Part shown: in pieces, positions 39,213 to 63,956 of the stretch
Layout: every line of letters starts with the position of its first letter
Position numbering within the stretch: the stretch's first letter is position 1
Assembly: GCF_003096195.1 (NCBI RefSeq)
Contig: NZ_CP023004.1
Coordinates: 2,274,501 to 2,338,500 of the forward strand
DNA from: Ereboglobus luteus
Lineage (GTDB): Bacteria > Verrucomicrobiota > Verrucomicrobiia > Opitutales > Opitutaceae
Direction: 5' to 3'
Length of the DNA: 64,000 nt
Program-made: the position numbers and the translations under genes
Notes under the pieces: model-generated
The model's input: only the letters and a program-made list of their open reading frames with translations
Told to the model about the DNA's origin: nothing
Databases searched by the model: none

Positions 39213-39249
39213 GATTTAATAATCAAATCTTTTAATATATATTACCCTT

Positions 39250-42366: not shown

Positions 42367-42392
42367 CCGCAAAAATGGAGTTTATTTATTTT

Positions 42393-45101
42393 ATGAAAAC
42401 ACATGATAATAATATGCCCGTGGGCGCGGACCTTCGGGGATTCAGGATTTTCCGCGCAGCCGCCGCCTTCGCGGGCGGCATGGCCCTCATGGCGGCGCTG
42501 CACGCTCAGATTCCCCCGCCAAATCAATACGGCGGCAATCTCCGCGATCCCAACAAGCCGTATTACAGCGATGGCACGACGCGGCTATTTATAGAGGCGC
42601 GCTGGACCGGCGCCACCACGAACCTTCTTGATCCCGCCGCATGGAGCACGGGCACGGTGCCCAATGATCCGGAGGGCGCGCGGACTTACGGCACCGGTTA
42701 TTCGGGCACGGGGTATTATGTCTCGGGCACGTTGATGGGGCCGCCGCCTCCGGACTCGCCTGATTTCATACCGGGCACGGTGTTGGTGCTGCCTTATAAG
42801 ACGACCAGCGGCGGTTATGCGATCCCCGACACGGTGGATCCCACCAAGGTTGAGTGGTATGGGGGAAACAAATACGAGCCCGTGCATCTCCAGTTGGCCT
42901 GGACCGGTTCCGGCGATTTTTATCAAAACATAGACCACATCCAATATGTTGACGGCTACGCGCTGGATTTGAGCGGCAACGACAGCGGCCGCTATACGCT
43001 TGATATAAATGGAATGGGGATCGTGCGCTGGAACACCGACAACGACGGCACCTCGTCCACGGCGCCGGAGTTCACCGGCTCGTCAAACCCACGCGGGCCG
43101 ACCAACATGCCGCCGTTGATTATAAACATCGGGAAAAACGCGACATTAAAATACAGTTCTCCCACCCCCGGCGCCGGCAGCACGGTGGGCAGGGATCGAA
43201 TAGACCAGTGGGAGCAATCATACCGGGCGAACTGGGGCAATGTGAACTCTCAGATCAATCTGGCCGATTCCTCCGCCGTGTTCGACATGAGCGAGCTGGT
43301 GGACACGACGCATTGTTATTTTTATAAAGTGGACGGTGTGAAAGGCTCCCAAATCCTGCTGCCCTCGGGCTCCCCCTCAATATATTTTGGCGCGGCCTCG
43401 AATGGCACGGGACGGCGTTATGACATGCGTATAGACTCCGACATTATCGCCGGCGCCATAGGTTCTCAGGCATTGCAAAAATATGGGGTGGGCACCCTTT
43501 ATTTGGGCGGCGAAAACACCTACACCGGCAACACCACTGTCCAGGAAGGGGCGCTCTTTATATATGGAAAAGTCGCGGGTTCGGTTGTCCTGGCCACAAA
43601 CCGGGTTACATCGTTTGGCGGCGACTCCAAGGGCAAGCCGCAGGATTATTGGACCATTGCCGGGAACCTGAGCAACACCCGGGGATATGTTTCCGCGGGC
43701 GCCACGGGCGGCGCGATTGGCGAGCTGCGAGTCAAGGGCAACATTATAATGGGATCGTCTGAGGCTTGGACCCTCGTGGATATTGAAAACCTGGGCAACT
43801 ATGATGTCATAAAGGCGGGCGGCACGATCGCGCTTGACGGGCACCTGCAACTGTCGCCCGTGCCAAACTCGACACTGCATGCCGGAACCTATCGCATCAT
43901 TGAGGCAGAGGGCGGCATCACGGGAAGTTTCTTTGATGTGTCAAAGCCCGGCCTGCTGACGCTCGATTGCGAAGTTCAGGTTTTCAGCCAGCATGTTGAC
44001 GTGGTCATGACCCAGCTTCCTTTCACCGGAGTGCGGGGGCTTTCCGATGTCTCCGGCAAGGTTGCGCCTTTGCTGGATTCGCTGATTGGCAATGCCGGGG
44101 CGGATGGTATCATCGGCACACTCAATGCCGCCACCGGGATTGGGCAATTGGACCGCGCAATCGCCCAGTTGACGCCGCTCGCGGATCGCTACTGGTTCAC
44201 CAACGCGGTGATCGGCACGGGCGATCTGACCCAGCGACTGGACGAGCGGGTTGTCCAGCCACTGGATGACGCACGGCATCGTTTTGGCATCTTTGCGGGA
44301 TGCTCCGCGCTCGACATGGACATTCCCGCCACCGACGGCGCGGAAAGCTGGGAGGGAACCATGATTCGTTTCCTCGGCGGTGTGGACTTCCACGTCGCGA
44401 ACAACCTTTCGGCCACTGTTTTTTATGCCAGGGACGAAACAAAATCCGACCTCGATCCCCTCGGCAGCGAGGGCAAGATCAAGAGCAATACCTATGGGCT
44501 CCATGTGAACTGGCGCGCGGGCAAGTGGGACCTCAAGGCGATGGCGTTTTACGGCACCGATGACTATGAATCGACGCGCAGCGTCGCGCTTGCCGGGGCG
44601 GGGGACTGGGTGCGCGCATCGAGCTCGGGCAAGCGGCTTGGCGGCGCGCTGAATGTCAGCTATGTTTTCGAGGATGTCATCGGCGGCGCCCTGAGTCCTT
44701 ATGCCGGTTTGCAATATGTAAAATGGGATGCCGACGGTTACGCCGAGACCGGCGCCACGCTGCCGATGAGCGTGGACGATCAAAGCGCGACCTCCCTGGT
44801 CGGGAAGGCGGGCATCCGGTTTGTGTATCCTTTCAAGTTGCTGAAATTGTCGTGCCGCACGGTGCTCAATGCCGGCTGGCAATTCGAGATGGGGGACAAG
44901 GACCGCACCGTTCGCGCCAGCCTGAATGACAACAATTATGAGCTGGACCTGACCAACGACGGCAACGGTTACGTGCTGCGGGCCGCCTTCGAGATCGATT
45001 TCTCCAAGCGTCTGACGCTCCATTTGAGCGCGGGCAAGGAGGACGGGCTGCACGACGTGGACAATGTCAGCGGTTACGCGGGAATAGCCTTCCGCTTCTG
45101 A
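42393..45101 (+). CDS. autotransporter barrel protein, first of a related pair
   Basis: About 902 residues with a membrane-crossing signal region (FRAAAAFAGGMALMAALHAQ). The passenger (about 40-530) has an early WTG module (ARWTGATTNLLDPAAW) and one autotransporter repeat (QKYGVGTLYLGGENTYTGNT). A junction QLPFTGVRGLSDVSGKVAP near residue 535 leads to a helical linker and an autotransporter barrel ending GYAGIAFRF. ATG 42393 is preferred over 42375 because the sequence around it, ATTTTATGAAAACACA, matches that around the start of the next gene. It follows the TonB receptor by 26 bases and should be cotranscribed. A surface glycan-handling role beside the receptor is my inference. Confidence 0.88.
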   Translation: MKTHDNNMPVGADLRGFRIFRAAAAFAGGMALMAALHAQIPPPNQYGGNLRDPNKPYYSDGTTRLFIEARWTGATTNLLDPAAWSTGTVPNDPEGARTYGTGYSGTGYYVSGTLMGPPPPDSPDFIPGTVLVLPYKTTSGGYAIPDTVDPTKVEWYGGNKYEPVHLQLAWTGSGDFYQNIDHIQYVDGYALDLSGNDSGRYTLDINGMGIVRWNTDNDGTSSTAPEFTGSSNPRGPTNMPPLIINIGKNATLKYSSPTPGAGSTVGRDRIDQWEQSYRANWGNVNSQINLADSSAVFDMSELVDTTHCYFYKVDGVKGSQILLPSGSPSIYFGAASNGTGRRYDMRIDSDIIAGAIGSQALQKYGVGTLYLGGENTYTGNTTVQEGALFIYGKVAGSVVLATNRVTSFGGDSKGKPQDYWTIAGNLSNTRGYVSAGATGGAIGELRVKGNIIMGSSEAWTLVDIENLGNYDVIKAGGTIALDGHLQLSPVPNSTLHAGTYRIIEAEGGITGSFFDVSKPGLLTLDCEVQVFSQHVDVVMTQLPFTGVRGLSDVSGKVAPLLDSLIGNAGADGIIGTLNAATGIGQLDRAIAQLTPLADRYWFTNAVIGTGDLTQRLDERVVQPLDDARHRFGIFAGCSALDMDIPATDGAESWEGTMIRFLGGVDFHVANNLSATVFYARDETKSDLDPLGSEGKIKSNTYGLHVNWRAGKWDLKAMAFYGTDDYESTRSVALAGAGDWVRASSSGKRLGGALNVSYVFEDVIGGALSPYAGLQYVKWDADGYAETGATLPMSVDDQSATSLVGKAGIRFVYPFKLLKLSCRTVLNAGWQFEMGDKDRTVRASLNDNNYELDLTNDGNGYVLRAAFEIDFSKRLTLHLSAGKEDGLHDVDNVSGYAGIAFRF

Positions 45102-45199
45102 TGTTTAATAAAACCCAATTAATAAAATAATCACGGAATCGCCGAACCATTAAAGAAACCGTTTCACCGCATTTTTCCGAGATTTAATAAAAACATTTT

Positions 45200-47755
45200 A
45201 TGAAAACACACATTTCCCTGATCCTTGCCTTCCTTTGCCTGGCGGTTGTCCCGGCCCTGCGGGCGCAATTGATAGAAACCATCTGGACCGGGTCCGGTGG
45301 GGACACGCGCTGGGATAATCCCGCCAACTGGCGAACCGGCGCGGTGCCCGACGCGAACACTTATATAAATATCAAGCCGGCGCTGCACCCGGTGGTGCTT
45401 GATCTCACGGGCGTGAGCGGGACATTTCAGCTGAACGGCTTCGATTTAAATGACAGGGCCAACGGCACCGTCATGAACATCCGGGGCACCGACGCCGAAA
45501 CGGTCACCATGGATATCACCGGCCTTCCCGTCATGTGGTATTTGCATAGCGGCGGCGTGCCGAGTTCCGGAATCAATATAGACGACCTGCCGCAGGTCAT
45601 CTTTAATATCGGCAAAAATGGCGTGTTGAAATTCAGCCTGGTCAGCAGCGGCACGGGAGGCGGGACGGATTTCACCCGCTATAATGGCGATGTCGCCCAC
45701 GTGCGCCTGACTGACAATGCCGTTTTCGATGTGTCGGAGCGCGTGTGGATGGATCCCGATGGTTCGGGCACGATGCCGCCCCGACGGGCGCTGGCTGCCG
45801 TGAGCATGTTGCAGGCCGAGGCCGGCACCACCATCAAGATGGGGCGCAATTCGTTGCGAATCGGCGATAATTACAGCGCGCGTGCGGTCAGCAGCGTCGA
45901 GATTGCCGGCAATATGGAGGCTTCCGAGGGGGGGATATTGATCAAGTCCGATCCGGGGACGGTTATTATATCCGGGCAAAATTATTTTGGTTATGGTGAA
46001 TACGAAACAGAGTTGCGGACGGGAAACCTTTTGGATGACAACGGATTTCTTTTCACTGGCACGGTCTCAGACGCAAGAACCTCCTCCCGCAACCTCGTCA
46101 TGTCCCAAGTGAACAACGGCGTCATGGTTGTGAACAGCAATATCGGGGACACGCGCGTCACCTCCGCCGGCGCCACCCTTGCCGGGCACGGACGAACGGG
46201 GTCGGTGATCGTGGAGCAGGGCACCGTGACCGGCGGGGCCGGCAGAAACAGCCCCGATGTCGGCACGCTGTTTGTGGACGGCAATTTCGAGATGCGCGCC
46301 ACCGGCTCCAGCACCCTGTGGATAGACATCGGCAAAAACGGCACATACGACCGCATTCATGTGAGCGGCTCGGCGGTTGTTTCCGGAAGCACGCCGCTTC
46401 TGCGCCTTTGGGTGGCGGCCGGCTCCATCGTCGCCGGCGAGTATAAATTTCTAACCTCGGATTCGCTTATCGAGGGCACGTTCGCAAAGAATAAGGTGAT
46501 GATTCCCGAATCTCTTACCCTGGTTCCCGCCGATCCTGAAAATCCCGTCAGCGTTTCCGCCGACAAAAAAACCATGAGCGTTAAAATGCTGCAGCTTCCG
46601 TTCTCCGACGTGCGGGGGCTTTCGGACGGACAGTTGAAAGTGGCCGGTTACCTTGATTATTTGATCACCCAGGCCGATCCCAATTCGCCCGAGTCATACA
46701 ATCCGCTGGTTGGCGTGATGAATGGCAAGGCAAGCCGCGGTTTTTATGAAACGGCCATCGACCGGGACGCGTCGTTGAAATTATTGGCCGACGCCATGAA
46801 CCAGCTAACACCCATGGCGTATGTGTCCTTGTATGAAACAGCCATTGCCGGCATGAGCACACTGGCCGAGGGGGTGGAAAACCGGGTCAACCTGGCCTTC
46901 AAGCAGCCGTTCAGGGACAAGTTTAGCCTTTATACGAATTTTGAATACAGCACCTCGAAGACGGAGGCGACGCTGGATACCGAAAGCGCCAAGCTGGACA
47001 ATTATTATTATACAATCGGCGGATCCAAATCGGTGGGCGAAAACCTGATGCTTGGCGCGGAGCTGGTCATTGGTGACGGTTCCTACATACCCGACAAGGA
47101 CGGGTCCAAAATCAAGGGCAATAGTTACACCGTCAGTGTGTTTGGCGCATGGAAACGCGACAAGCTGACCGTGGGCGGGCTGGCGCTGTTTGGCTCCGAT
47201 GATTATTCATCGAATCGTTCCGTTAAAAAAACCGGGCAGGCGGATTATGTTTCCGCCGATATCGATGGTTCGCGCAGCGGATTGGGCGCCTGGGTTTCAT
47301 ACAAGCATGACATCGGCTCATTTTCCATAAGCCCGTATGGAGCCATGCACTGGATGAATTGGACCATGAATCGTTTCGAGGAAGACGGCCCCTCCTCCGT
47401 GGCGCTCACCGTTGAGAAACAAAAGGAGGATTTGATACAATCCCGGTTGGGCGTTCGCGCCGAAAAAGCCCTGTTTGCGCAGAATCATCCGAATTCGCTG
47501 TTTCATCTGTTTTTGGATGTGTCGTGGGTTTATCTATGGAAGGGCACCGATGCGCGAACCGTGAGAACGTCACTGGAGGGTTATTCCGTGGATGCCGTGG
47601 TGCCGGAACTATCCGACAGCGGTGTGCGCGCGACGCTCGGCATGTCGGCCGCGCTTGACAGCCGCTGGACATTTCAAGTGGGCGCGACCGCCCAGCGCGA
47701 CGGCGGTTTCGACACGCAATATAATTACCACGCCACCTTCGGTTATAAATTTTAA
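45200..47755 (+). CDS. autotransporter barrel protein, second of a related pair
   Basis: An 851-residue protein with a clear signal peptide (ISLILAFLCLAVVPALRAQ). The N-terminal WTG module (IWTGSGGDTRWDNPANW) is followed by a beta-helix passenger to about residue 465. The junction QLPFSDVRGLSDGQLKVAG is nearly the same as in the gene before. The barrel (about 570-851) includes IKGNSYTVSVFGAWKRDKL and ALFGSDDYSSNRSV, which parallel KSNTYGLHVNWRAGKWDLK and AFYGTDDYESTRSV in the neighbour. It ends in NYHATFGYKF. The two genes are therefore diverged duplicates. A terminator follows at 47778. Confidence 0.9.
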   Translation: MKTHISLILAFLCLAVVPALRAQLIETIWTGSGGDTRWDNPANWRTGAVPDANTYINIKPALHPVVLDLTGVSGTFQLNGFDLNDRANGTVMNIRGTDAETVTMDITGLPVMWYLHSGGVPSSGINIDDLPQVIFNIGKNGVLKFSLVSSGTGGGTDFTRYNGDVAHVRLTDNAVFDVSERVWMDPDGSGTMPPRRALAAVSMLQAEAGTTIKMGRNSLRIGDNYSARAVSSVEIAGNMEASEGGILIKSDPGTVIISGQNYFGYGEYETELRTGNLLDDNGFLFTGTVSDARTSSRNLVMSQVNNGVMVVNSNIGDTRVTSAGATLAGHGRTGSVIVEQGTVTGGAGRNSPDVGTLFVDGNFEMRATGSSTLWIDIGKNGTYDRIHVSGSAVVSGSTPLLRLWVAAGSIVAGEYKFLTSDSLIEGTFAKNKVMIPESLTLVPADPENPVSVSADKKTMSVKMLQLPFSDVRGLSDGQLKVAGYLDYLITQADPNSPESYNPLVGVMNGKASRGFYETAIDRDASLKLLADAMNQLTPMAYVSLYETAIAGMSTLAEGVENRVNLAFKQPFRDKFSLYTNFEYSTSKTEATLDTESAKLDNYYYTIGGSKSVGENLMLGAELVIGDGSYIPDKDGSKIKGNSYTVSVFGAWKRDKLTVGGLALFGSDDYSSNRSVKKTGQADYVSADIDGSRSGLGAWVSYKHDIGSFSISPYGAMHWMNWTMNRFEEDGPSSVALTVEKQKEDLIQSRLGVRAEKALFAQNHPNSLFHLFLDVSWVYLWKGTDARTVRTSLEGYSVDAVVPELSDSGVRATLGMSAALDSRWTFQVGATAQRDGGFDTQYNYHATFGYKF

Positions 47756-51015: not shown

Positions 51016-52068
51016 TCACTCGCCCGAATCCAGCGCATTGAGCGATTCGAGCATTTGCGCAATCGACAGCCTGGCTCCGCAAATCACCGAGTCGGCGGCG
51101 CCGTAATACATCGTCACCGTGTCGCCATCGACGACATGGCCGTTTGTGAACACCACGTTTTGCATAAACCCGGCGGTTTCGTAATCCTCCGCCGGGCGCA
51201 TGATCGGGCTCGTCGAGCGGGCCAGCACTTTTGTCGGATCGTTCAAATCCAGAAGCAGCAGTCCCAGTGAGTATTCGCCCTTTGCGTCCACGGCGTGATA
51301 AATTTCAAGCCACCCCCTGGGCGTGCGAATGGGCTCGGCGCCGGCGCCAATCTTCATCGCCTCCCAGCCGGGGCGCGGGCGGGCGATCCATTGGTGCGCG
51401 CCCCAGTGCAGCAAATCCGGCGAGCGTGAAATCCATATCCACGGTCCGCCGATGTCGTTGTGCGTCGGGCGGTGCAGCGCGTAATAATGTCCGTTTATTT
51501 TTTCGGGAAACAGCGCGCAGTCTTTGTTTGGCGGCGGGAAGATCATCCCTTCCCGATCAAAAGTTTTCCAATCTTTCGTGCGTATCAGGCCGACGCCGTA
51601 ACCCGCGTCGGAAACCGCCGTGTAGGTGATGTTATAAACACCGTCGATGCAGCACACGCGGGCGTCCTCAATGCCGAAGCTTTCGAGTTTTCCATTACCA
51701 ATCAGCACGGGTTCCGGTTCGACCTCGAAGCGCACACCGTCATCGCTCCACGCGAGGCGCAGGTGCGAAAGCGTGGTCAGGTAACATTGCCCCTCGTGGA
51801 CAAACAGGCGGGCGTCCGAAGCCTGTCCGCGTTCGGCCGTGCTGGATTTCACGATGCGCATTCCATCCGGAGCCTCCGGATCAAGCACCGGTGTGGATAT
51901 AAAACCGTCTTCCTGCACGGGACGCTCCGCCACGCGCAGCAAAAGGCCGATGCGCCCGTTGTGGACAAACGCGCCCGGATTCAACAGGCATGCGACCTCC
52001 ATGTCCGGGCGGCTCGGCTTGACGTCCGCCGGGCGAAGAATGGGGTTTTCTGGAAAACGAAATATCAT
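51016..52068 (-). CDS. GH130-type glycoside phosphorylase/hydrolase
   Basis: A 350-residue five-bladed beta-propeller protein. RFPENPILRPADVKP at the start, VACLLNPGAFVHNGRIGLLL and LESFGIEDARVCCIDGVYNI match GH130. The aspartate of the EDAR segment is the usual catalytic acid, and the LHRPTHNDIGGPWIWISRSP strand lines the pocket. Family members phosphorolyse or hydrolyse beta-mannosides. The exact linkage cannot be read here. The frame is open to 52215, but ATG 52068 gives the usual MIFRFPENPIL start. No signal peptide, so cytoplasmic. It lies downstream of the rhamnosidase... relative order on the minus strand is large secreted proteins, rhamnosidase, then this gene. Confidence 0.85.
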   Translation of the reverse strand: MIFRFPENPILRPADVKPSRPDMEVACLLNPGAFVHNGRIGLLLRVAERPVQEDGFISTPVLDPEAPDGMRIVKSSTAERGQASDARLFVHEGQCYLTTLSHLRLAWSDDGVRFEVEPEPVLIGNGKLESFGIEDARVCCIDGVYNITYTAVSDAGYGVGLIRTKDWKTFDREGMIFPPPNKDCALFPEKINGHYYALHRPTHNDIGGPWIWISRSPDLLHWGAHQWIARPRPGWEAMKIGAGAEPIRTPRGWLEIYHAVDAKGEYSLGLLLLDLNDPTKVLARSTSPIMRPAEDYETAGFMQNVVFTNGHVVDGDTVTMYYGAADSVICGARLSIAQMLESLNALDSGE

Positions 52069-52221
52069 GCGCAAAATATCCGGCGCGCGCAAATCACCAT
52101 CAAGTAAATAGACCCATTGCGGCGCATATACAGAAAAGGAACAATTAGCCGGAATGTTTGCGGGATGTCCGTGAGAATCGAAAAGATTCATCCACGCGCA
52201 ACCGTTCGGAGGCATGAGGTC

Positions 52222-55200
52222 TCAGCTGACGAGAATGATGTGAAGTGATTCTCCTGTCGCGCAAACGCGCCGCGCGGCGCCGGCGGATGCGTTTCGTATT
52301 TTTCCCGCGAAAATTTTCACGCGGGCCTTGGGATCTACTTCGGCGGGAATTTCAATCTCGGCGGGCGTGCCCGGCGGCAGCGTGGCGCGCAGCTCAAATG
52401 CGGGCGCGGCGTTTGCGGCGCGTTTTTTGTCGCGGTTTATTTTCCAGAAAACTTCGACAACTCCGCGCGGAGTCGGAACACGTCCGCGCGCCCAATCAAG
52501 CCCGCCCGGTTGCGGGGCGATGCGCACGGTGGCGTAGCCGGGTCTGGCGGGCTGCACGCCGAGAACGTGGGCGCTGAGAAAATACGTCGGCGCGGCCGAC
52601 CAGCCGTGGCAATGGCTGCGGGTCATGCGCGGTTTGTCCGCGTGATACATTTCCCAGAACGTCGTGGCGCCGGCCTTGATTTGTTTGCCCCAATAGTCGC
52701 GAATGAGGCGCGTCATGTCGGCTCCGCGTTTTTCACGGGCGAGACCCTCTAGGACGAAAAACATGAAGAACGGGCTGCCCGCTTTTACGAACCCTTCTGG
52801 GGCTTCGCTCATGATTTTGCGCGCGCGCGCGGCGCGCTCCGGCGTCGGAACGCCCGCGATGGTTGCGGCGGTGTGGGTTTGCTGGCTGAACACGACGGAG
52901 CGCGTGCCGTCGGCGCGAATGCAGTCGATGTAGGCGCGGCGTTTCGCGTCCCAGAGATGCGTGTTGATCGCGGCGGCGATTTTGTCGGCGAGGCGCGTCC
53001 AGCGTCGCGCTTGACTGGCGGCATCCCTGCCGAGGGCGCGGGCGAGCGCGGCGCACTGGCGAAGCCCGAGGACGGCGAGGCAGTTGAGGTGCGTGACTTC
53101 GCCGCCTGAGGGCGTGTCGAGCGCGGCCCAGTCAAACATGTTCCATGCGTGGATTTTTATGAGGCCGCGCGGGCTGATGAAGCTTTCGATGCCGTCAACA
53201 TTGAGGTCGATGGCCCGGATCATTTCGCGAGCGAAGGCATGGTCGCCAGTGTGCCGGTAATGCTCCTCCGCCCAGCGCATCCACAAAAAGCTCCACGCGG
53301 GAAGAATGTTCTGCCACGCGCTGGGAACCTGGCTTTCGACGAGTGGCGAACGCGCGAGGCTTTGGGCGGCGACGCGCCAGGAATGCGCGCTGAGGCGCGG
53401 GTCGCCGTTTGCCACGAGGTCAACAAGCGCCTCGTTGCGGCCGTCGCCAACCCAGAATGTCTGCTCGTAGCTGGGGCAGTCGGTGTAGGTGTCCTCGGAG
53501 CAGCAGCAGACGGAGTGCGCGCCGGCCTCCCAGATTCGCTCGAGCAGCGTGTCGGAACAGGTGAACGCGCCCTGGCGTTGCTGCGGATAGGTGCTGAGGA
53601 GCGCACGAATGTGACGAATACGAACGGGCCGGTCGAAGTTGCGCAGGCTGAACCAGGAATACTGAAAACCGCGGCGGACGAGCGTGCGGTAACGTTGCGG
53701 ACCTTCCCGGCAGATATAGCGGAAGGAGTTCTTCATGTTTTCCGCGAGATTGAAACGGCCGTCGGGCTGGATGAACTCGAAGTTGTGGTTGTCAACAATC
53801 GTGCCGCAGGGCGCGTCGATTTCGATTTCGTGATAACCGATCACCTCCCGGCCAAAGTCGAGCAACAGGCGGACGCCGCCGCTTGCGGGCGTTGGATGGA
53901 TGGTTGTCCATTCCGCCGTGCCGTGTTGAAGCGCGGCCGGGTTTTCGACGCGCGGACGAATGTCGGGGATGACGCGCTCCGAGGCGCATTGCGCGTAGAT
54001 GTCGGCGCCAGCGACCATGTCGCGCGTGAGCGGGCGAACATATTCGGCCGCGAGTTCGCCGTCGTCGAGGCATCCGCGCGCACGGATGCGCTTGAATTGT
54101 TTAGCGGTGGCGCCGGAGGGGATTGCGGCGGCGCAAACAGGATGTTGTTCGCCGGTGATCGGAGGCGGGGCGGGGAGTTCGAACGGGCCGACCGCAAGCC
54201 AGGGCGCCGGCGCGTCGTCCGCGTGCCGCGGATAGGCCGCCCATGTGACGGGGCGTGCGACCCAGACGTTGAGAACGATCCACCAGTAGCGGTCGCGCGG
54301 CGGCATCTCGCACATGAGGGTGTTCCACCCGGCCTTGAGGCGGGCGTGCGCGACTCCGGTGTCGGTGCGCTGGAGCGTGTTGTCGTCGAAGGCGAGTGGT
54401 TTTCCATTGAGCGTCCACGGGACAAACGGGCGGAGGTGCGGTTGGTGGAGCTGGATCGCCTGCGCTCGCTCGCTGTAAATATGCGTGAGCAACAGCATGT
54501 CGCAGCACGGCGCGTTGGCCGTGAAATCGTCCGGATTGAGATATGCGCGCGGGTTGAGATTCCACGAATAGTCGGCCGTGCGAACGGCTTCGACCTCGCG
54601 GACGCGAACCGGATCGACGGGGTTGCGGGTGAGTTGCGGGATGTCGCGCAGCACGAATTTGTCGTGCGCGCCTCCGCCCGCGTTGGCGACGGCAATGGCG
54701 GCCGGCCATGCGGCGAGTTGCGCGGCGGTTTCGGCCGGGGGCGTGTGCGAGGACCAGTCGTGCGGAAAGGCGCGCGCGTCGAATTGCTCCTCCCATGCCT
54801 GCATGCAACTGATGCGCGGGACTGGCCAGAGGTGCCCGGCGTGGGGTGCCGCGCGCCATTCGCCGGAATCGTCGGTGACGAGCGTGCGCGCGCCGGAAGC
54901 GTCGCGCCATGCGAGCTGCGCGATCATGCCGGGCGCGGCGTGCAGATATTGGAATGTGCCGATGCCGAAGTGCTGCGCGAGGACTGCGATGACATTGCGC
55001 CCGGGGCGAAGCACGGCGCGCAAGTCGTAGGGATCAACGGGCCAGGGCGATTGCCACGAGCGCGCGGGGCCGTGGCCGAGCCAAACGCCGTTGACGTAAA
55101 CCTCATAACGCGAGTCGGCCGTGATGAGCAGGGTGGGCGTGTCAGCGTCCGCTTGGATACCGCCGTGGATTTCGAACTCGCGACGGAAACAAACGACATT

Positions 55201-55281
55201 GTGTGCGGGGCGTGTTGCTTGCGCCGACCAAATCCAGCGCGCGCTGGGGGCGAAGAAAACGGAGGGCGCTGACGAACTCAT
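52222..55281 (-). CDS. GH78-type alpha-L-rhamnosidase
   Basis: A 1019-residue multi-domain enzyme. An N-terminal beta-sandwich resembles the rhamnosidase N-domain (RWIWSAQ, SRYEVYVNGVWLGHGPARSW). A second sandwich precedes the (alpha/alpha)6 catalytic domain. The catalytic region is recognised by EDTYTDCPSYEQTFWVGDGR near residue 600, which carries the acidic residue pair, and by GATTFWEMYHADKPRMTRSHCHGWSAAPTYFLSAHVLGV near the end. A short C-terminal sandwich closes it. It removes terminal alpha-L-rhamnose. ATG 55281 is chosen, because the longer lead to 55386 runs into an inverted repeat. No signal peptide is visible, so a cytoplasmic place is likely. Confidence 0.88.
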   Translation of the reverse strand: MSSSAPSVFFAPSARWIWSAQATRPAHNVVCFRREFEIHGGIQADADTPTLLITADSRYEVYVNGVWLGHGPARSWQSPWPVDPYDLRAVLRPGRNVIAVLAQHFGIGTFQYLHAAPGMIAQLAWRDASGARTLVTDDSGEWRAAPHAGHLWPVPRISCMQAWEEQFDARAFPHDWSSHTPPAETAAQLAAWPAAIAVANAGGGAHDKFVLRDIPQLTRNPVDPVRVREVEAVRTADYSWNLNPRAYLNPDDFTANAPCCDMLLLTHIYSERAQAIQLHQPHLRPFVPWTLNGKPLAFDDNTLQRTDTGVAHARLKAGWNTLMCEMPPRDRYWWIVLNVWVARPVTWAAYPRHADDAPAPWLAVGPFELPAPPPITGEQHPVCAAAIPSGATAKQFKRIRARGCLDDGELAAEYVRPLTRDMVAGADIYAQCASERVIPDIRPRVENPAALQHGTAEWTTIHPTPASGGVRLLLDFGREVIGYHEIEIDAPCGTIVDNHNFEFIQPDGRFNLAENMKNSFRYICREGPQRYRTLVRRGFQYSWFSLRNFDRPVRIRHIRALLSTYPQQRQGAFTCSDTLLERIWEAGAHSVCCCSEDTYTDCPSYEQTFWVGDGRNEALVDLVANGDPRLSAHSWRVAAQSLARSPLVESQVPSAWQNILPAWSFLWMRWAEEHYRHTGDHAFAREMIRAIDLNVDGIESFISPRGLIKIHAWNMFDWAALDTPSGGEVTHLNCLAVLGLRQCAALARALGRDAASQARRWTRLADKIAAAINTHLWDAKRRAYIDCIRADGTRSVVFSQQTHTAATIAGVPTPERAARARKIMSEAPEGFVKAGSPFFMFFVLEGLAREKRGADMTRLIRDYWGKQIKAGATTFWEMYHADKPRMTRSHCHGWSAAPTYFLSAHVLGVQPARPGYATVRIAPQPGGLDWARGRVPTPRGVVEVFWKINRDKKRAANAAPAFELRATLPPGTPAEIEIPAEVDPKARVKIFAGKIRNASAGAARRVCATGESLHIILVS

Positions 55282-55295
55282 GTTTCGACTTGGGT

Positions 55296-55402
55296 TTTGT
55301 GGGGGCGCACCTTGCGTGCGCTCTGATGCTAGCCCGCTTTGTGAATGCGCATGCAAACAGCTATTCGCATACGAGGGCGCACGCAAGGTGCGCCCCTACA
55401 AA
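55296..55402. repeat. long inverted repeat upstream of the rhamnosidase gene
   Basis: The left arm 55296-55321 (TTTGTGGGGGCGCACCTTGC and six more bases) and the right arm 55377-55402 are near-perfect reverse complements of 26 bases. They enclose a 55-base spacer that includes ATGCGCATGC. This is a third palindromic family, unlike those at 9167 and 17337. It lies between the start of the rhamnosidase gene and the stop of the large CBM9-like protein, so it could end transcription or be a mobile miniature element. Confidence 0.8.
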
Positions 55403-55475: not shown

Positions 55476-58400
55476 TTACTTGATTTCGATTTCGCCGAAG
55501 CGGGCCGGGTTTACGTCGGATTCCGTGGGCACGTCGTTGACCATGTCGGTCGCCTTGTCGTGCCAGTAGAGGCGCGCGGCGCGGTTTGTGCCGGATGCGT
55601 CGGAATAGATGACGCCGGCGACACCCCGCAATTTCTCGGGGAGCTTCTTTCCATCGAGGCCGATGTCGGCAAGCGGGATGCGCACGAGCGCGGTGTAGCC
55701 CTTGCCGTCGGGCGCGATTTTCACATCGATTTTTGCGCCGGGCAGAATCTTCACGATGTCGAAGTTGCGCGCGTTGGAGAGGTTGTTGCCGACGACGTAG
55801 GTTTGCGGATTTTCCTTTTTGGAGGCGCTTTTCTGCCAATAAATCACGCGCGGTTCGCCGTTGACTTTTGCTGTGAGGAGCCGGACGGGGCCGCGTCCGG
55901 GGATGTCGAGCTTGAGATCAAGCGCATCGCCGCCGATGAAGGCGTGCGTGATGTTGTCGGCGCCGTTTTTCCACGGCGAGGGATCGGCGACCTGCCAGGC
56001 GAGCGCAAGTTCGCGCTTGTCGGCGAGGAGAGAGACTTTGAACCAGCGCGAATCGTTGCCGCTTTCCCGCACCAGTGTGAAGGGCGTGTCTTTTGCAAGT
56101 GCGTCGCCGCGGGCGAGGGTTGTCGCGGGCGCGGCGGAGGGAAGTGTTTTGCGCTTGGTGATGACGAGGGGGGCCTCGGCGTCGTCGGATTTTTTGCGCG
56201 AGGCCGCGATGGCCCGGCCGCGCGCGATGTCGTCCGCTGTGACTTTGAGGGCGACGGTCTGGCGGCGCATGGTGTCGAGGTTCTTGACTTCGAAGATGCC
56301 GAAATATGCCTGGCCGGATTGCACCAGGACTTTGCCCTTCATGGGGCCGTCGGTGACGCGCCAGACGTGGCCGCCAAAACTTTCGCCGCCTATGTGCGTG
56401 GCGTCCATGGTGACGATGCCCTTGATGTCCTGGAAGAGCGAGGTGAGGTAGAGGCCGTCGAAACTCATCATGAACCACTGGCCGCGGTCGCCTTGGAGCA
56501 TGGTGGCGCTGCCGACACCGGGGATGTTTTCAATGACGCCGTTGGTGCGGAAGGGGGCGATGAGAAGGCCGGCGCGCGCGGCGGGCGCGTCCCAGCGGCC
56601 GTAGGGATTCGGATAGGCGCCGCGACGTCCGTCGGCGGTGTGGTAGCTGATGCCGTCGGTGATGTTGCCCGCGTCGTCAACGAGCGGCGTGCCGCAGGAG
56701 CTGGGCCGCTCAATGACGGTTATGGTGTTTTTCGGGCGGCGCGGATTTTTGAAATCGTAAACGGGGACGCCGTTGGCGTCGATTTTTTGGAGCGGGTAAA
56801 TGTTTTGCGCGGGATCGAAGATGGTCATGTCCGGGCGCACCCAGCCGGGCGACCAGTAGTGGGCCTTGAAGGCGATGCCGGCGGTGATGAGCTCGTTGCG
56901 CTCGACGCAGCCGTTTCCGTTTTTGTCAATCCAGGCGCAAGGCTGCTTGGAGTCGGGAAGGAATTCGCTGAGCGGCGTGCGGTCGCGGCGCGTGCGGTTG
57001 TCGATCGGCGGGAAGAGCGCGGTGGCGGGAACGAACTCGCCGTTCGCGGCGCGTCGGCAGATGATGAGCGCGCGCTGGTCGGTGGGGCCCGTGGCAAAGG
57101 CGAATTCGTGGACGCGCCCGCCGGCGTCGGTGACGCGTCGGACCTGGCCCTGCGTGCGCACGAGGGCGGGGTGGTAATAGAGCGGGATTTCGGCGGACTT
57201 GCGGCGCGCGGAGTCGATGCCGGCGTCAACTTTGAACTCAAGCCCCATGGCGATGAAGCGCGTGGGGTCGTGCGGAATCGCGTAACCGTGCGTGGCCCCG
57301 TAGGGTGACGCGCCCCAGTATTCGTCGTCGAAGGAACCGTTGGGTTTCCAAACGGAAACGCGGTGGACGTTGGAGGTGCCCTCGGCGATCCAGATGCGTC
57401 CGCGCGCGTCGAAGTCGGCCGAGACGGGCAGCATGACATCGTCGCGATCAAAGGGTCCGGCGGCGCGGTCGGTCGCGCCGGGTTTGGGTTTGCCGATGAT
57501 GGCGGAGGGCGCGGCGTCGCCGTTGAGGTCGTAAACGAACACCTGGTTTGTGCCGGCGTCGCAGACGGCGACGCGGCGTTCGTCTTGCGAGACGCCGATT
57601 CGCACGGGCTTGCTGACCGCGGAGAGATTCAGGAGCTGGCGCTGGCGCTCGAGCGTGGAGGCGTTGAGTTGCCAGAGTGTTTTGTCGGCGAGGACGGCGT
57701 AGATATTTCCATTGCGCGAGCGGATGGCGCGGAGGCCGGGGGCGGGACGGTTTTCTAGAATTTGGCCGGAGTCGATGTCGATTTTATAAAGTTTGTTTTC
57801 GGGCAGGAGAAGCCAGAGCGCGCGCTCGCCGAGCGCGATGGTGATGCTTTGCGCGAACGCCACGCGCGCGAGGCCCTCGGTGATGGCGGTGGCGGAGGCG
57901 ACATCGACCTTGGGGAGCGGCAGGTCGAGCTCGCGCGAAACGAGTTGCCGGCCGTCTGGAAGCACAAAGGGCGCGGTGCGGCCGGTTTTGGCGTCGATGC
58001 GTGTGACGAGGTATTTTTTCTGCCAGATGTCGAACTCGAAGGCGTAAATGTAATCATCGGTCGCGATGATGTCGGAGGCGGAGGTGCGCACGCTCCAGTC
58101 GGCGCCGGAGTCGATGTCGAGGCTGCTCATACCGCGCCCGGCCTCGGGCATGGAGAAGCCCGCGACAACGCGTTTGCCGTGCGTGGCGATGGATGTGGCG
58201 GAGCCGTGGTCGCTGCCCCAGGTCACGTTTCTTTCGAGGGTGAGCCAGGGCGGCGTGCCGGCGTTGTAAACGGTGGTGAGGAGTTCGAGTTTTACGGGCG
58301 CGTGGTCGGCGATGACGGCGGTGTAGGAACCGGGTGCGACGGGTTTGCCGGCGTCGTCGAGACCGTCCCAGTAGTCGGTGATTTTTTCGCCGGTGCGCGG

Positions 58401-59423
58401 ATACTGCGCGATGAGATTGCGGACGCGCTCGCCCCTGGCGTTGTCGATGGCGATGGTGACCTCGCGCGCGGGCGCGTCGGCGGCGATGGCGGGAATCGTG
58501 TAATTGATCGCGATGGAGCCGGCGGTGTCGAGGTTGAGGAGCGCGGCGAGGCGTTGTTGCTGGAGCGCGCGTTGCCCGGCGGTGATGTTGAGATTGCCGG
58601 TGTTCGAGATCGTCGCGGAGCCCCAGTGGTCGCGGGCGCGGAACATGAAAATGCGGTTGGCCTTGGGCGTGTTCACGCCGTCGGCGAGGCGGTGCCTGGT
58701 GCTGGACTCGGGGACGTCGCCTGGGCCCATGTTGGCGGCCCACATGGTTTCCCAGCCGATGACAAACTGGCCGCCGGGCGCGATCGGCTTGCCGCCGAGG
58801 CGCAGGTAGCTCCAAGGCATGAAGGCCTCCATGTTGTAGCCCTTGCCGTTGTCCCACGCGCGCATGGCGACCTTGCCGCCGAAGGCCTCCATGGAGTTGC
58901 CGAAGCGCTTCGTGAGGTCGGGGCGCGCGGGGCCGGTGTTGTCGTAGGGCGGCTTGTCTCGCCAGCCGCCGTGTTGCGCGAGCATGTAGGGTTTTTGCTC
59001 GGCGGTGGAGTAGTAGAGCGTGATGTGGATTTGATGCTCGTCGGGGGATTTGTTGTCGAAGATCGTGCGCAGCTGCACGGCGTCGCCACGCCAGGCGCGG
59101 TCGAAGTCGACACCCTTGGAGGCGTTTTTGAGCGGGTCGATGTCGTGGATGCGCGCGAGGTAGTAGATGCCTTTTTCATCCCACATCATGTGTGTCCAGA
59201 TGGAATACGTGTCCACGAGCTCGGGGCTGTTGTAGCTCCACATGCCTGCGGAGAGATCCCAGTCGTTGTCGCGGCCGTCGATGGTGACGGCACCGGGCGC
59301 GGGCACGACCGTGACGTTGGTGACGTAGGACATGGTGGCGCCGGAATCATCATCGGCGGCGCGAATGGGGGCGGTGGCGAGAAGCGCGCCGAGTGCGAGG
59401 AGGAGGATTGGTTTTCGTATCAT
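55476..59423 (-). CDS. giant secreted CBM9-like / propeller protein, shorter paralogue
   Basis: A 1315-residue protein with a signal peptide (MIRKPILLLALGALLATAPI, RAADD). An N-terminal CBM9/DOMON-like sandwich (about 35-270) shows GAVTIDGRDNDWD and FVIGWETMWAANM. A FlgD-like Ig unit (about 310-375) has YWDGLDDAGKPVAPGSY. A long NHL/propeller-like middle follows, with an EF-hand-like calcium loop DKNGNGCVERNE near residue 833. A second CBM9-like domain closes the protein (LLADKRELALAWQVADPSPW, ending in ARLYWHDKATDMVNDVP). No catalytic motif was recognised. It is likely a secreted glycan-binding protein or an undescribed enzyme. It is paired with a longer relative 45 bases upstream. Confidence 0.75.
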   Translation of the reverse strand: MIRKPILLLALGALLATAPIRAADDDSGATMSYVTNVTVVPAPGAVTIDGRDNDWDLSAGMWSYNSPELVDTYSIWTHMMWDEKGIYYLARIHDIDPLKNASKGVDFDRAWRGDAVQLRTIFDNKSPDEHQIHITLYYSTAEQKPYMLAQHGGWRDKPPYDNTGPARPDLTKRFGNSMEAFGGKVAMRAWDNGKGYNMEAFMPWSYLRLGGKPIAPGGQFVIGWETMWAANMGPGDVPESSTRHRLADGVNTPKANRIFMFRARDHWGSATISNTGNLNITAGQRALQQQRLAALLNLDTAGSIAINYTIPAIAADAPAREVTIAIDNARGERVRNLIAQYPRTGEKITDYWDGLDDAGKPVAPGSYTAVIADHAPVKLELLTTVYNAGTPPWLTLERNVTWGSDHGSATSIATHGKRVVAGFSMPEAGRGMSSLDIDSGADWSVRTSASDIIATDDYIYAFEFDIWQKKYLVTRIDAKTGRTAPFVLPDGRQLVSRELDLPLPKVDVASATAITEGLARVAFAQSITIALGERALWLLLPENKLYKIDIDSGQILENRPAPGLRAIRSRNGNIYAVLADKTLWQLNASTLERQRQLLNLSAVSKPVRIGVSQDERRVAVCDAGTNQVFVYDLNGDAAPSAIIGKPKPGATDRAAGPFDRDDVMLPVSADFDARGRIWIAEGTSNVHRVSVWKPNGSFDDEYWGASPYGATHGYAIPHDPTRFIAMGLEFKVDAGIDSARRKSAEIPLYYHPALVRTQGQVRRVTDAGGRVHEFAFATGPTDQRALIICRRAANGEFVPATALFPPIDNRTRRDRTPLSEFLPDSKQPCAWIDKNGNGCVERNELITAGIAFKAHYWSPGWVRPDMTIFDPAQNIYPLQKIDANGVPVYDFKNPRRPKNTITVIERPSSCGTPLVDDAGNITDGISYHTADGRRGAYPNPYGRWDAPAARAGLLIAPFRTNGVIENIPGVGSATMLQGDRGQWFMMSFDGLYLTSLFQDIKGIVTMDATHIGGESFGGHVWRVTDGPMKGKVLVQSGQAYFGIFEVKNLDTMRRQTVALKVTADDIARGRAIAASRKKSDDAEAPLVITKRKTLPSAAPATTLARGDALAKDTPFTLVRESGNDSRWFKVSLLADKRELALAWQVADPSPWKNGADNITHAFIGGDALDLKLDIPGRGPVRLLTAKVNGEPRVIYWQKSASKKENPQTYVVGNNLSNARNFDIVKILPGAKIDVKIAPDGKGYTALVRIPLADIGLDGKKLPEKLRGVAGVIYSDASGTNRAARLYWHDKATDMVNDVPTESDVNPARFGEIEIK

Positions 59424-59468
59424 AAAATTGAATACAGGCGGGGCGATGCGGTCAGGCGCGGCGTTTTG

Positions 59469-62400
59469 TTAGCGAAACTCGAACGCGCCCCACAATGCGG
59501 GCCGCAGCATTGCCTCGTCGGGAACGTCGCTCACGATGCCGGTCGCCTTGTTGTGCCAGTAGAGGCGCGCGGTGGTCTGGTTGCCGTCGCCGCGGAGGAT
59601 GCCGATGTCGCCCTTGAGTTTCGCGCCGGGTTTGAGCCGGTCGGGCGCGAGGCCGAGGGTTTTTAGCGGGACGGCGATTTCATAGACGCCGTCCTTGCCG
59701 GCGGTGAATTGGATTTGCGCGCTCACGTCGTCCACGCGGTCGAAATGAATCGTGCGCCAGGGCGAGGAGAAGGGGACGCGGTCCCTTGCCTTTGTGCCTG
59801 GCACGACGGCGCGATAGAGCAGGGCGAGCGGCTTGCCTTTCACGACGGTTATGAGGAGGCGCTGGTCGCCGGCCACCGGGGTTTTGCGCGCGGGATCGGC
59901 GCCGGCGTCGGCGCCGATCATGATGTCGAGCGCGCCGCCGGTTTTGAACGGGGCGACGGGCTGCTCGCCGGTGTTGGCGAGGAGTTTCGGATCGCCGGTG
60001 CGCCATTGCGCATGGAGCCTGTCGCCGGAAACGGCAAGGGCGGCGGTGACATCGTAGGGTTTGCTCCGCGAGCTGAAGTAGGCGGCGACGCCCGCCTTGT
60101 CGATGTCGACAAAACGCGCGGCGCCCCAGTCGGGCGCGCCGGATTTTTGCATTTGAATTTCAACCGTTCCGCTGCCCAGCGAACGCTGGCGGGCGGCCTC
60201 GGCCTCGACGCGCCAGGCGGCGGCTTTTTCGAGATCGGAGGCGGTGATGTTGATGGGGAAATCGGCCAGGCGGCGAATGCTGTCGATTCCGTCGAGCCGG
60301 ATGAGGGCGCTGCGCGCGCCATCGACGATGTAAACGTTGCCGTCGGAGGTGCTGGTGATTGTGGGCCAGAAGTTTTCCTCGCCGAGCGTGACGCCGTCGA
60401 GCGGCATGTTGCGCGTGGCGGAGGGCATGCGCCAGATTTTGCCCTTGCGCATGTCCTCGAAGAGCGTGGCGGCGAGCAGTCCGTCGCGCGTGAAAATGTG
60501 GACGCGCCCGTGGTTGGTGTTGGTGGCCCAGAGCGGGCCGGCGTCGGAGGTTTTGCCGGGGCTGAAGAAACCGCCGAGAAGTCGCGTCGGCGCGATGAGT
60601 TGCCCGGCGCGGTCGGGGGCGGGCGCGCGGTGCGAGGCGTGCAGCCCGGGCCACGGATTCGGGTAGCTCCATTTGGGCGCGGCGTTTTGCGCGCCACTGA
60701 TCGAGAGGCGGTCGTAGGGTGCGATGCCGAGCGTGACGGCGGTCCATCCGTCGTTGAGCGGGGAGACGAGGACTTGCGCGCCGCCCGACGAGGCGGGTCG
60801 CATGACGCCTTCGGCGAGGACGACGGGCTTGGAAATGTCGTAGCGCGGTGCGCCGTTGTTCGTGAACCCGACGGGCGCAAAGCGGACGGACTGGCCCTTG
60901 GTTTCGTTGCCGAGTCGGGCGACGCAGAACGACAGGTCGGGCATGATCGTGACTCCATCAACAATGCCTTTGATATAGGAAACTTCATTGGGCTGGGCTT
61001 GTGCGTCGCCGTTCAAGTCGTGCCAAATGAAGAAGACATTGGCGCGGGCATTTTTGGCATTGAGGTCCGTGCCCTCGGGCCAGCGTTTTTTGAAGGAATC
61101 TGTTTTGAGGACTGCCCAATCGGCGGCGCGGCCCATGGCGGCGCACGGGCGCGCGAGTCCGTCGCGCTCGATAAACAAAAACGCCGTGCCATGTCCGTTG
61201 GTGGGATTGCTGTTGTAGCAGTTGGTGAAGTAACGCCTGCCTTTGAAATAAAGCGGCGTCTCGGGGCCGGCGCTGCGGAATGCGAGCGGCATGTCGGTCG
61301 CGCTGGCGCGGTGATAAACGCGGGCGAGCTCATAGCCGCCCTTGTCCCAATCGAGGCGAAACTCCATCGCGCCGTGTTTTTCGTCGGCGTAATAAAAGCG
61401 CGTGCGATCCACGGGATCGAGCGTGCCGCCTCCGCCGTATTTTCCGGGACCGTAGATCGCCTTGGCGAGCTTGCCGTCGGGGGTCCAGATGCTGACGCGT
61501 TTCGGCAGAAAATCATTTTCGGCAACCCAGAGGCGTCCGCGCGAATCAACGGCGAGGCCGAATGGATTGTTCATGTGAAGCGGATCGTAGGCGCCGGCGG
61601 CGGGTGCGCCGGGGTTCCCGATTGTGCGGAGCGGTTTTCCGTCGGGGGAAAACACTTTCACCTGATGGCTGTTTCCGTGGTCGCTGATGTAGAGGGTGCC
61701 GCGCGCGTCACCGGTGTTTTGCGGGCCATCAAAATTGATCGTGATGCCCGCGGGCGCCTCAAGGCCGGTGGAGATGAGTGCGGCGGGGGCGGGAAGGGCG
61801 GAGAGATCGGCGAGCGAGTCGTAGCGGACGAGGCGTTTTCCGGAAATGGCGAGGAGGCGGCCCTGTGCGTCGAAGGCGAGGCCGCGCGGTTTGTCGAGCG
61901 GGATGGTGGTGAGGTGCCCGCCCGAGCGCGCGTCCACAAACATGAGCTGGTTTTTTGCGGTGAGACTGACTGCGATGAGGCCGTTATAAACGGCGATGCC
62001 GCCGATCTCCTTGCTGACGATTGTTTCCATTTCGTTGGCGCCGCCCTGCATGGGGCCGGAGCCGGGGATTTTTCCGAGAACGTATTTGATGACTTCGCGA
62101 TCCCTGCCGGCGAAGGCATCGTGCGCGTTGGCGAGCGTGATGTTCTTGTTGGCGACGACGGCGGTGATGCGCAGCTCGGGTGTGCGGGTATTTTTCCCGG
62201 ATTCCCAAGCGGACGCGACATAGGCGACATCGCCGGGGACTTTTTTCGCGGGATCGTCGCCCGTATCGCGCGCCATGTAGGGCGCGGCCGTCCAATGGCC
62301 GCCGACCCAGCGCTTGCCGCCGAGTTTGCGGCCGTCGAGCGTGACCCAGGCGAGTCCGGCGGGACCCTCGGTGATGAAGCAGCCGAGCAGCACCAGCGGC

Positions 62401-63956
62401 TCGTTTGCGACGGGCGATTGGTCCGCGGGTATAAAAAGCGCGGACTGCGGCGGCGTGTGGTTGGCGAGCCAGGCGCCGGAGGCGTCCGCGGTGTTCCACG
62501 GAGGATTGCCCGAGGCGTAAACCGAAAATTCGTAGTGCGGCTTGATCTCGTCGCGCACAAGTCCGCGCACGCGGTATTTGCCCGGGGCGACGGGGCGCGC
62601 GGGAATGTTGAAGACGCCGTGCATGGCCGCGTCGGGATCGCGCCCGAGGTCGTCGCATCCGTCCCACCACGCGGTGTTTTCACCGGCGGGGAAGGGCGTG
62701 TCGGAAAAGAGATTGCGGACGCGCGTGCCGTCGGGGTTTTCGATGACGAGCGTGACGCGGCCGGCGCGCGGAAGCGTGAAGCGAATCGGAATCGGCGGGT
62801 GCGCGGGCGGGGACGCGTCGAGCGCGGCGGCGAGGCTGGTCGCGAAAGTTTCGGGCGCGGTTGCGCCGAGGGAGGAGAGCGCGAGAAGCTCGCCGAGCCA
62901 GACGCGTTTGCCGGATTTCGCGGGTTTCACGCCGTCGCCGAGCGGCGCGGTGATTTTGACGCGGATGGCGCGCGTGGTTATTTCTCGCTCAAAGGGGAGA
63001 TGGAGCGTGGAGTGGCGCTGGGGCTGTTTGTTTGCGTCGCCCGCGTTCGTATTCAAAATTCCGATACGCTCCCAGTGGGCGTCGCCCGCGTCGCGGGGAT
63101 TTTGCTCCTCCGGCCCCGCGTAGGCTTGCGCCTCGGCGGAGGCGAAGCCGGGGCAGACGGCGACAAGGCCGCCGAGCGCGACGGGCGCCGGCCATGTGAG
63201 AACCGTCCATTCGGGGCGCCCCGGGGAAACGGACGGGGCGGATGCGCCGGGCGTTTCTTTGGCGTTGATGTTTGCCCAGGCGCCGTTCGCACCCTCGGCG
63301 GTTTCGTTGGAAATGCGCCCGGCATATTGGCTGTCGGCGCTGGCCGAGGCGACGGCGAGCGGCGCGATGTTTGCGAAACGCCCGGAGAGGAGCGTCACCG
63401 CGCCGAGCGTGCCCGCGTAGTGCAGATCGGTTTGCGCGGCGGTGTGGGTGAAGCGCAGCGCGCTTGTGACGGTGCCGGGAGGTAGCACCCAAAGCGTGAG
63501 CTGCGTGGTCTTTTGGTTGTCGGCGGCGCTGAGCCAGTGGATGTTTCCCGCGGCTCCGGTTCCCGGAACCTTGTCCGTCATGCGGCCGGCGGAGAAACGT
63601 TGCGCGGGTATCCATTGCGATTCGTCCGCCATGTCGCCGGGGACGGGCGCGCCGGGCTTGAGAACGCTTAACCGCCCGCCGCCAAGGACGAGGATGGAGC
63701 CGATTTCTTGCGGCGTGTGAAACGCGATGCGCAGATGGCGCGGCCCGTGCCTCTTGGAGTTGCCGAAGGTGATTGTGTTTCCGCGCGCTGTGATTGGTTT
63801 TTCGGCTCCGTTTTCCCACTCGGCAAGGGCGTCGTCGTTGACAACGCCGCCCGGCGCGAGGCTGAAGGGGAACACGGGCGTGATTGCCGCGGGGGCGGCG
63901 GCCAGTGTCGGGGCGAGGGCAAGAAAAACGGCAATGGCGGCGGAATGGATTTTCAT
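59469..63956 (-). CDS. giant secreted CBM9-like / propeller protein, longer paralogue
   Basis: A 1495-residue protein with a signal peptide (MKIHSAAIAVFLALAPTLAA). The N-terminal half has discoidin-like sandwich features (HLRIAFHTPQEIGSILVLGG, AIRVKITAPLGDG). A FlgD-like unit follows (NTAWWDGCDDLGRDP, RPVAPGKYRVRGLV). The propeller has NHL-like strands such as KPRGLAFDAQGRLLAISGKR and NPFGLAVDSRGRLWVAENDF. A calcium-type loop DLNGDAQAQPNE is near residue 980. The C-terminal CBM9-like domain ends in ARLYWHNKATGIVSDVP, the same ending as the next gene. The two are clearly homologous over their last two thirds, while the N-terminal domains differ. Function is unknown; glycan binding or cleavage outside the cytoplasm is inferred. 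It begins 44 bases from the window edge. Confidence 0.75.
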   Translation of the reverse strand: MKIHSAAIAVFLALAPTLAAAPAAITPVFPFSLAPGGVVNDDALAEWENGAEKPITARGNTITFGNSKRHGPRHLRIAFHTPQEIGSILVLGGGRLSVLKPGAPVPGDMADESQWIPAQRFSAGRMTDKVPGTGAAGNIHWLSAADNQKTTQLTLWVLPPGTVTSALRFTHTAAQTDLHYAGTLGAVTLLSGRFANIAPLAVASASADSQYAGRISNETAEGANGAWANINAKETPGASAPSVSPGRPEWTVLTWPAPVALGGLVAVCPGFASAEAQAYAGPEEQNPRDAGDAHWERIGILNTNAGDANKQPQRHSTLHLPFEREITTRAIRVKITAPLGDGVKPAKSGKRVWLGELLALSSLGATAPETFATSLAAALDASPPAHPPIPIRFTLPRAGRVTLVIENPDGTRVRNLFSDTPFPAGENTAWWDGCDDLGRDPDAAMHGVFNIPARPVAPGKYRVRGLVRDEIKPHYEFSVYASGNPPWNTADASGAWLANHTPPQSALFIPADQSPVANEPLVLLGCFITEGPAGLAWVTLDGRKLGGKRWVGGHWTAAPYMARDTGDDPAKKVPGDVAYVASAWESGKNTRTPELRITAVVANKNITLANAHDAFAGRDREVIKYVLGKIPGSGPMQGGANEMETIVSKEIGGIAVYNGLIAVSLTAKNQLMFVDARSGGHLTTIPLDKPRGLAFDAQGRLLAISGKRLVRYDSLADLSALPAPAALISTGLEAPAGITINFDGPQNTGDARGTLYISDHGNSHQVKVFSPDGKPLRTIGNPGAPAAGAYDPLHMNNPFGLAVDSRGRLWVAENDFLPKRVSIWTPDGKLAKAIYGPGKYGGGGTLDPVDRTRFYYADEKHGAMEFRLDWDKGGYELARVYHRASATDMPLAFRSAGPETPLYFKGRRYFTNCYNSNPTNGHGTAFLFIERDGLARPCAAMGRAADWAVLKTDSFKKRWPEGTDLNAKNARANVFFIWHDLNGDAQAQPNEVSYIKGIVDGVTIMPDLSFCVARLGNETKGQSVRFAPVGFTNNGAPRYDISKPVVLAEGVMRPASSGGAQVLVSPLNDGWTAVTLGIAPYDRLSISGAQNAAPKWSYPNPWPGLHASHRAPAPDRAGQLIAPTRLLGGFFSPGKTSDAGPLWATNTNHGRVHIFTRDGLLAATLFEDMRKGKIWRMPSATRNMPLDGVTLGEENFWPTITSTSDGNVYIVDGARSALIRLDGIDSIRRLADFPINITASDLEKAAAWRVEAEAARQRSLGSGTVEIQMQKSGAPDWGAARFVDIDKAGVAAYFSSRSKPYDVTAALAVSGDRLHAQWRTGDPKLLANTGEQPVAPFKTGGALDIMIGADAGADPARKTPVAGDQRLLITVVKGKPLALLYRAVVPGTKARDRVPFSSPWRTIHFDRVDDVSAQIQFTAGKDGVYEIAVPLKTLGLAPDRLKPGAKLKGDIGILRGDGNQTTARLYWHNKATGIVSDVPDEAMLRPALWGAFEFR

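Follow-up and report, generated by a model that had tools for sequence, protein, structure and literature searches.

Two very large neighbouring genes of Ereboglobus luteus, both encoding secreted proteins and located beside glycosidase genes, raise the question of what the two proteins do with sugar polymers, if anything. They lie on the minus strand, near the end of the 64,000-nucleotide stretch of contig NZ_CP023004.1 analyzed here (hereafter the window), as do all the features of the two proteins given below. Protein A (1315 aa) is encoded at 55476..59423 and protein B (1495 aa) at 59469..63956, with a gap of 45 nt between the two genes. Both open reading frames are open over their full length and both translations start with a signal-peptide-like N-terminus; from these data and from Pfam, A is described as the divergent member of the pair and B as the one which kept the canonical motifs. 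No lipobox cysteine was seen by eye near either N-terminus and no SusD, SusE or SusF domain was matched by Pfam in A or B. The original prediction, made from the sequence, considered the two proteins as a possible new type of glycan-binding or glycan-cleaving pair sharing a common domain order.

This common order, composed of a FlgD-like unit, an NHL-like core, an EF-hand-like loop and a CBM9-like C-terminus, was borne out. In A, the FlgD Ig-like unit (residues 315-371, 58311..58481) matches PF13860 with 29.6 bits for a cut-off of 27; the corresponding unit of B (residues 380-475, 62532..62819) is under this cut-off (16.2 vs 27 bits) and was recognized by its homology to that of A. The NHL-like repeat core, a presumed propeller, extends over residues 386-1060 of A (56244..58268), where it is defined by homology to the core of B and by the match of the family profile to NHL propellers of the PDB, and over residues 480-1240 of B (60237..62519), where PF01436 reaches 31.2 bits (cut-off 20) at residues 796-814 and where PDB NHL propellers are also matched. 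The NHL match of A falls narrowly under the cut-off (19.4 vs 20 bits), and at E 0.01 NHL is found in 16/16 B-like and 7/16 A-like members of the family. Comparison of the core profile with itself returned short repeats only. The C-terminal domain of A (residues 1121-1315, 55479..56063) is CBM9-like, PF06452 (CBM9_1) being matched over residues 1214-1313 with 24.5 bits for a cut-off of 23.4; that of B (residues 1290-1495, 59472..60089) has no direct Pfam match to CBM9_1 and is assigned by its homology to the domain of A in hhalign.

The N-terminal regions were predicted to differ between the two proteins, and they do: profile comparison of the A domain with either half of the B region revealed no relation (prob 0.1 and 0.6). 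The description of the A domain as different from that of B was thus right, and overlooked that it is a second CBM9-like domain (residues 33-285, 58569..59327), homologous to the C-terminal domain of the same protein (hhalign prob 97.4, E 1.5e-11), so that A is flanked by two CBM9-like domains. The N-terminal region of B (residues 30-372, 62841..63869) is weakly F5/8 type C (discoidin)-like, with PF00754 in 4/11 of its relatives (best E 0.0015) and PDB 4cua at E 0.06. From the FlgD-like unit through the C-terminus, A and B are distant paralogues according to the profile comparisons: the cores align over 657 columns with 22% identity (prob 100, E 5.5e-87 with hhalign), the FlgD units with prob 99.8 and E 5.2e-29, and the C-terminal domains with prob 100 and E 3.8e-45. 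AlphaFold2 models built from four-row alignments (A, B and their counterparts in L034, described below) had mean pLDDT values of 29.0 and 34.2, too low for the models to be used.

The earlier statement that no known catalytic motif is present holds insofar as none matches, but it left aside a set of conserved polar residues, several of them invariant. Conservation was counted over the 58 family members longer than 900 aa, and the positions are given as A/B. E427/E530, Y708/Y840, W831/W978 and E844/E991 are invariant (58/58), followed by E1014/E1194 (57/57), D833/D980 (56/58), R688/R820 (55/58), E681/E813 (54/58) and H406/H500, present in 53/58 members and missing in five. H406, E427 and E1014 are located toward the two ends of the core, regions that a closed propeller would bring next to each other. 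E681/E813 and R688/R820 occupy what we take to be typical NHL consensus positions and may be purely structural; E681 and R688 were for this reason set aside as catalytic candidates. Invariance need not mean catalysis, as N1153 and R1181 of the CBM9-like domain are invariant as well (57/57). Five recurring motifs, worded by eye, characterize the members: W-x-x-[DN]-H; E-[GA]-G near E427; W-x-D-x-[DN]-x-[DN]-x6-E; W-x-Y-P-N-x-x-x-G-x-H-x-S-H; and E-x-F near E1014.

The third of these motifs corresponds to the EF-hand-like loop, DKNGNGCVERNE in A (residues 833-844, 56892..56927) and DLNGDAQAQPNE in B (residues 980-991, 60984..61019). It was found in 56/58 members compared with 1/1160 shuffled sequences, and it has the EF-hand spacing D-x-[DN]-x-[DN]-x6-E, from which we infer that it may bind calcium. 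Dx[DN]xDG-type calcium loops occur at propeller blade tips in integrin, a fungal lectin, PilY1 and YesW, the calcium blades having an extra ligand two residues past the motif (PMC3123361). The loop of A and B resembles them and differs by its last Glu, at position 12 in the EF-hand spacing.

The fourth motif separates the two proteins. H-x-S-H (residues 1106-1109 of B, 60630..60641) is conserved in the B clade, with H1106, S1108 and H1109 kept in 14/14 members, and disrupted in the A clade, where the segment is shortened (6/6), H1106 is absent, S1108 is replaced by Arg and a His aligned to H1109 persists in 4/6. Several distant relatives are also devoid of H-x-S-H, so that its loss is not peculiar to the A clade. 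Its absence was considered and rejected as a hallmark of every A-type partner, since the A-group members of G341, G209 and G329 keep the motif or a variant of it.

Taken from their sequences, A and B could tentatively be regarded as a secreted glycan-degrading pair, B being the likelier catalyst and A a divergent partner, a reading to which we give slightly less than an even chance. Ranking close behind it is the explanation that both proteins are non-catalytic glycan binders, in which the propeller would be a scaffold displaying the CBM9-like and F5/8-like domains and handing the polymer to the GH78 and GH130 enzymes and the esterase encoded nearby; it is a plausible competitor, although we give it somewhat less than an even chance too. 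The domains recognized by Pfam are all of binding type, and the role of NHL propellers is often one of binding and not of catalysis. Moreover, the CBM9-like ends of A are better conserved than its core in comparison with G254 (55% identity for the N-terminal and 56% for the C-terminal domain vs 40% for the core), and the N-terminal region of B is the fastest-changing part of this protein (dN/dS 0.53 against the L034 copy, the FlgD unit being the slowest with 0.063), as would fit a part setting specificity. These observations have to be weighed against the family-wide invariance of Glu, Tyr and Trp residues in the core and against the 51-57% identity that the core of B retains over 700 residues with three genomes from other bacterial families. 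Both genes are under purifying selection (dN/dS against the L034 copies of 0.228 for A and 0.277 for B).

Comparison with databases did not attach the pair to a characterized enzyme family, the outcome that was to contradict the original prediction: none of the matches in Pfam, NCBIfam or the PDB is to a named enzyme. In NCBIfam, all matches of A and B, to FlgD and Scy-type propellers, stayed below threshold; the PDB sequence search found nothing with A and NHL propellers with B, and the family profiles matched NHL propellers in the PDB, that of A also matching FlgD. No PL11 model or structure was matched at E 1 and none of PL24, PL25, PL42 or GH145 at E ≤1, in Pfam and among the best 60 of 61 and the best 60 of 88 profile matches. 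The family counts as unnamed because its core is without a match to a curated family or a solved enzyme in the libraries searched, and our literature search found no description of it among the papers listed. The domains that compose it are known, as are enzymes built on a propeller; what is unnamed is the family itself. Its core is alike, by sequence or profile, to that of NHL propellers (PF01436; PknD, TRIM-NHL and the designed Pizza proteins), and differs by a far greater length, by the inserted calcium-type loop, by the FlgD unit before it and by the CBM9-like domain after it. NHL-repeat propellers are not known from glycan loci. CBM9_1 is itself a known family (PF06452), over the cut-off in the C-terminal domain of A and, through homology to this domain, extended to the N-terminus of A and the C-terminus of B.

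Among glycan-active propellers, the PL11 rhamnogalacturonan lyase YesW is an eight-bladed, calcium-binding propeller (PMC3123361, PMC8787155). Its likeness to A and B is that of a glycan-active protein whose propeller carries Dx[DN]xDG-type calcium loops (PMC3123361, PMC8787155), and the difference is that A and B have one loop each, in which the Glu takes position 12, the EF-hand arrangement (loops of the calcium blades in PMC3123361). PL24, PL25, PL42 and GH145 are propeller lyases or hydrolases acting on rhamnose-uronate glycans with an active site that includes His and Arg (PMC8377490); the conserved set of A and B is in contrast mostly composed of Glu, Tyr and Trp.

A core of non-glycosidic type, i.e. 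an oxidoreductase-like or other propeller of PQQ, lactonase or amidating-lyase type that is secreted together with sugar-binding domains, appears improbable. It could account for weak matches to PQQ_2 in 4/16 A-like members (best E 9.3e-8) and to SGL in 10/16 B-like members (best E 8.9e-6), but both profiles match many propellers, their scores in the proteins themselves are well under the cut-offs (PQQ_2 in A, 12.7 vs 27.6 bits; SGL in B, 17 vs 26.3 bits) and no CxxCH haem motif was seen by eye in A or B.

The distribution of the family bears on the same question. In a phylum sample of 387 genomes, A had matches in 49 and B in 58, some of the weaker ones covering the NHL stretch only. A search with A through the single 4.17-Mb contig of the own genome returned A and B only, and a genome of the same genus (G080) has neither gene, indicating a patchy presence. 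The nearest outside copy was found in L034, an Opitutaceae MAG and the sole locus obtained from a contig scan queried with a single protein, where both genes are adjacent in unchanged order (80% identity for the best segment of A). At least two family genes separated by three genes at most were present in 15/41 loci examined, a count that is neither independent nor complete since loci of sister species are included and several contigs are short, and for which the gene calls in the fetched loci are codon-usage picks rather than annotations. In 14 of these 15 paired loci the two genes fall in opposite halves of the midpoint-rooted tree; owing to this rooting and to deep branches that are partly of low support, the A-group and B-group labels of distant members are tentative. 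No relative was found in viral contigs and no relative of the B core in a plasmid collection.

The glycosidase surroundings claimed for the pair were confirmed. A GH78-type alpha-L-rhamnosidase (52222..55386, minus strand; PF17389, E 3.3e-39) is encoded directly downstream of A, followed after 6 nt by a GH130-type phosphorylase/hydrolase (51016..52215, minus strand; PF04041, E 1.1e-51). The first 31-38 residues of the GH78 reading frame, which has a TTG start, match several other places of the genome with 51-68% identity, suggesting that the true start is internal to this frame and that a repeated element precedes it. GH78 was rejected as a conserved partner because the L034 genome has no close counterpart (best matches 26-38% identity); as this is the nearest genome with the pair, the rhamnose or fucose substrate that had been proposed is weakly founded. 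The opposite strand encodes GH29, ThuA and a Gfo/Idh/MocA oxidoreductase, and farther off a TonB receptor and two autotransporters. Positions 32840-47755 of the window (plus strand) carry, in a run beside glycosidase genes, a 2071-aa PATR-repeat protein together with this TonB receptor and the two autotransporters.

The recurring neighbour of the family is an esterase, not GH78. A GDSL esterase is encoded upstream of B, just past the end of the window, in the own genome and in L034. The copy of the own genome (L004:1986-3229, minus strand) is split by a frame change, which may reflect gene decay or faulty assembly; that of L034 is intact (434 aa). The esterase profile matched 11/139 genes located at most two places from a family gene vs 3/168 farther away (Fisher p 0.013), an enrichment weaker than it appears as sister loci were counted; per whole genome, 16 to 41 matches were found in the nine genomes searched. 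Pfam, independently of this profile, identified PF13472 in 8/69 scanned neighbours. These 69 proteins were hand-picked, mostly among the longer of the 133 proteins within two places, the remainder comprising two proteins of more than 2000 aa, several others of more than 350 aa and most of the shorter ones. Most of the scanned neighbours are not recognized glycosidases, with two GH35, two GH36 and one GH29 among the 25 of 87 families listed. Small proteins are encoded beside or between the family genes in L067, L069, L077 and L078, two of which were scanned and are DUF1559/pseudopilin-like, and in L077 a GntR regulator accompanies them.

A second neighbour is the lyase-like gene at L004:7055-11407 (plus strand; 1450 aa), located beside the pair and divergent from the esterase gene. 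It has no Pfam match and is 73% identical to the gene beside the pair in L034. A five-sequence profile of it matches an alginate lyase (E 5e-4), with a heparinase II/III-like protein as a weaker match (E 0.093), a distant likeness to the toroid alginate/heparin lyases. Matches were retrieved in 10/288 genomes, the strong ones being confined to the own genome and to the unrelated genomes G229, G238 and G244, each of which has B-clade genes. With the own genome excluded, the hypergeometric probability of this co-occurrence is 8.8e-6 when genomes are counted and 1.1e-3 when genera are; the background was taken as the 386 genomes of the B search, although 288 were searched for the lyase-like gene, and the B clade was defined post hoc. 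A gene whose product resembles unsaturated glucuronyl hydrolase (25463-27139, minus strand; PDB 1vd5, E 2.2e-11; Pfam GH88 below the cut-off) is located 28 kb from the pair. Together with the lyase-like neighbour it hints at a uronate-containing polymer. Least probable of the explanations is a structural or envelope role of the pair, with its location near glycosidases on the chromosome being incidental, since the few glycosidases and many unrelated families among the neighbours, which would agree with it, are set against the GDSL esterase enrichment, the co-occurrence with the lyase-like gene and a patchy presence in the phylum ill-suited to envelope housekeeping.

Returning to the favoured glycan-degrading pair, the family members, which recur in pairs in distant relatives, probably contribute to the degradation of a sugar polymer. 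Both exported, A and B would act on one glycan outside the cell or in the periplasm, for which an acylated heteropolysaccharide with uronic acids is the most likely candidate. The polymer would be held by the CBM9-like and F5/8-like ends, and the NHL-type core, a propeller with a single stiffening calcium loop, would present a conserved pocket, which in B could cleave the glycan. A, having lost the H-x-S-H segment and kept the other invariant residues, could be a partner of altered specificity or a binding-only paralogue. The products would then be taken over by the rhamnosidase and the phosphorylase encoded next to the pair. A more specific version, in which the pair founds a family of calcium-dependent propeller lyases or hydrolases of an acylated uronate polysaccharide, with an active B and a motif-depleted A, mobile between distant bacteria together with the esterase and a toroid-type lyase, is in our opinion unlikely as a whole. 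Of the new glycan pair originally proposed, the relation to glycans is retained, through the CBM9-like ends, the GH78 and GH130 genes and the recurrent esterases, as is the novelty of an unnamed family; its rhamnose- and fucose-based part is weakly founded.

If B cleaves a glycan, it would represent a new propeller family for carbohydrate enzymology, and could serve as a marker for polymer-degrading loci missed by present annotation. If A and B only bind, they would be unusual exported glycan-binding proteins. The family provides concrete residues to mutate, and its A-like members are present in 49/387 genomes of the phylum.
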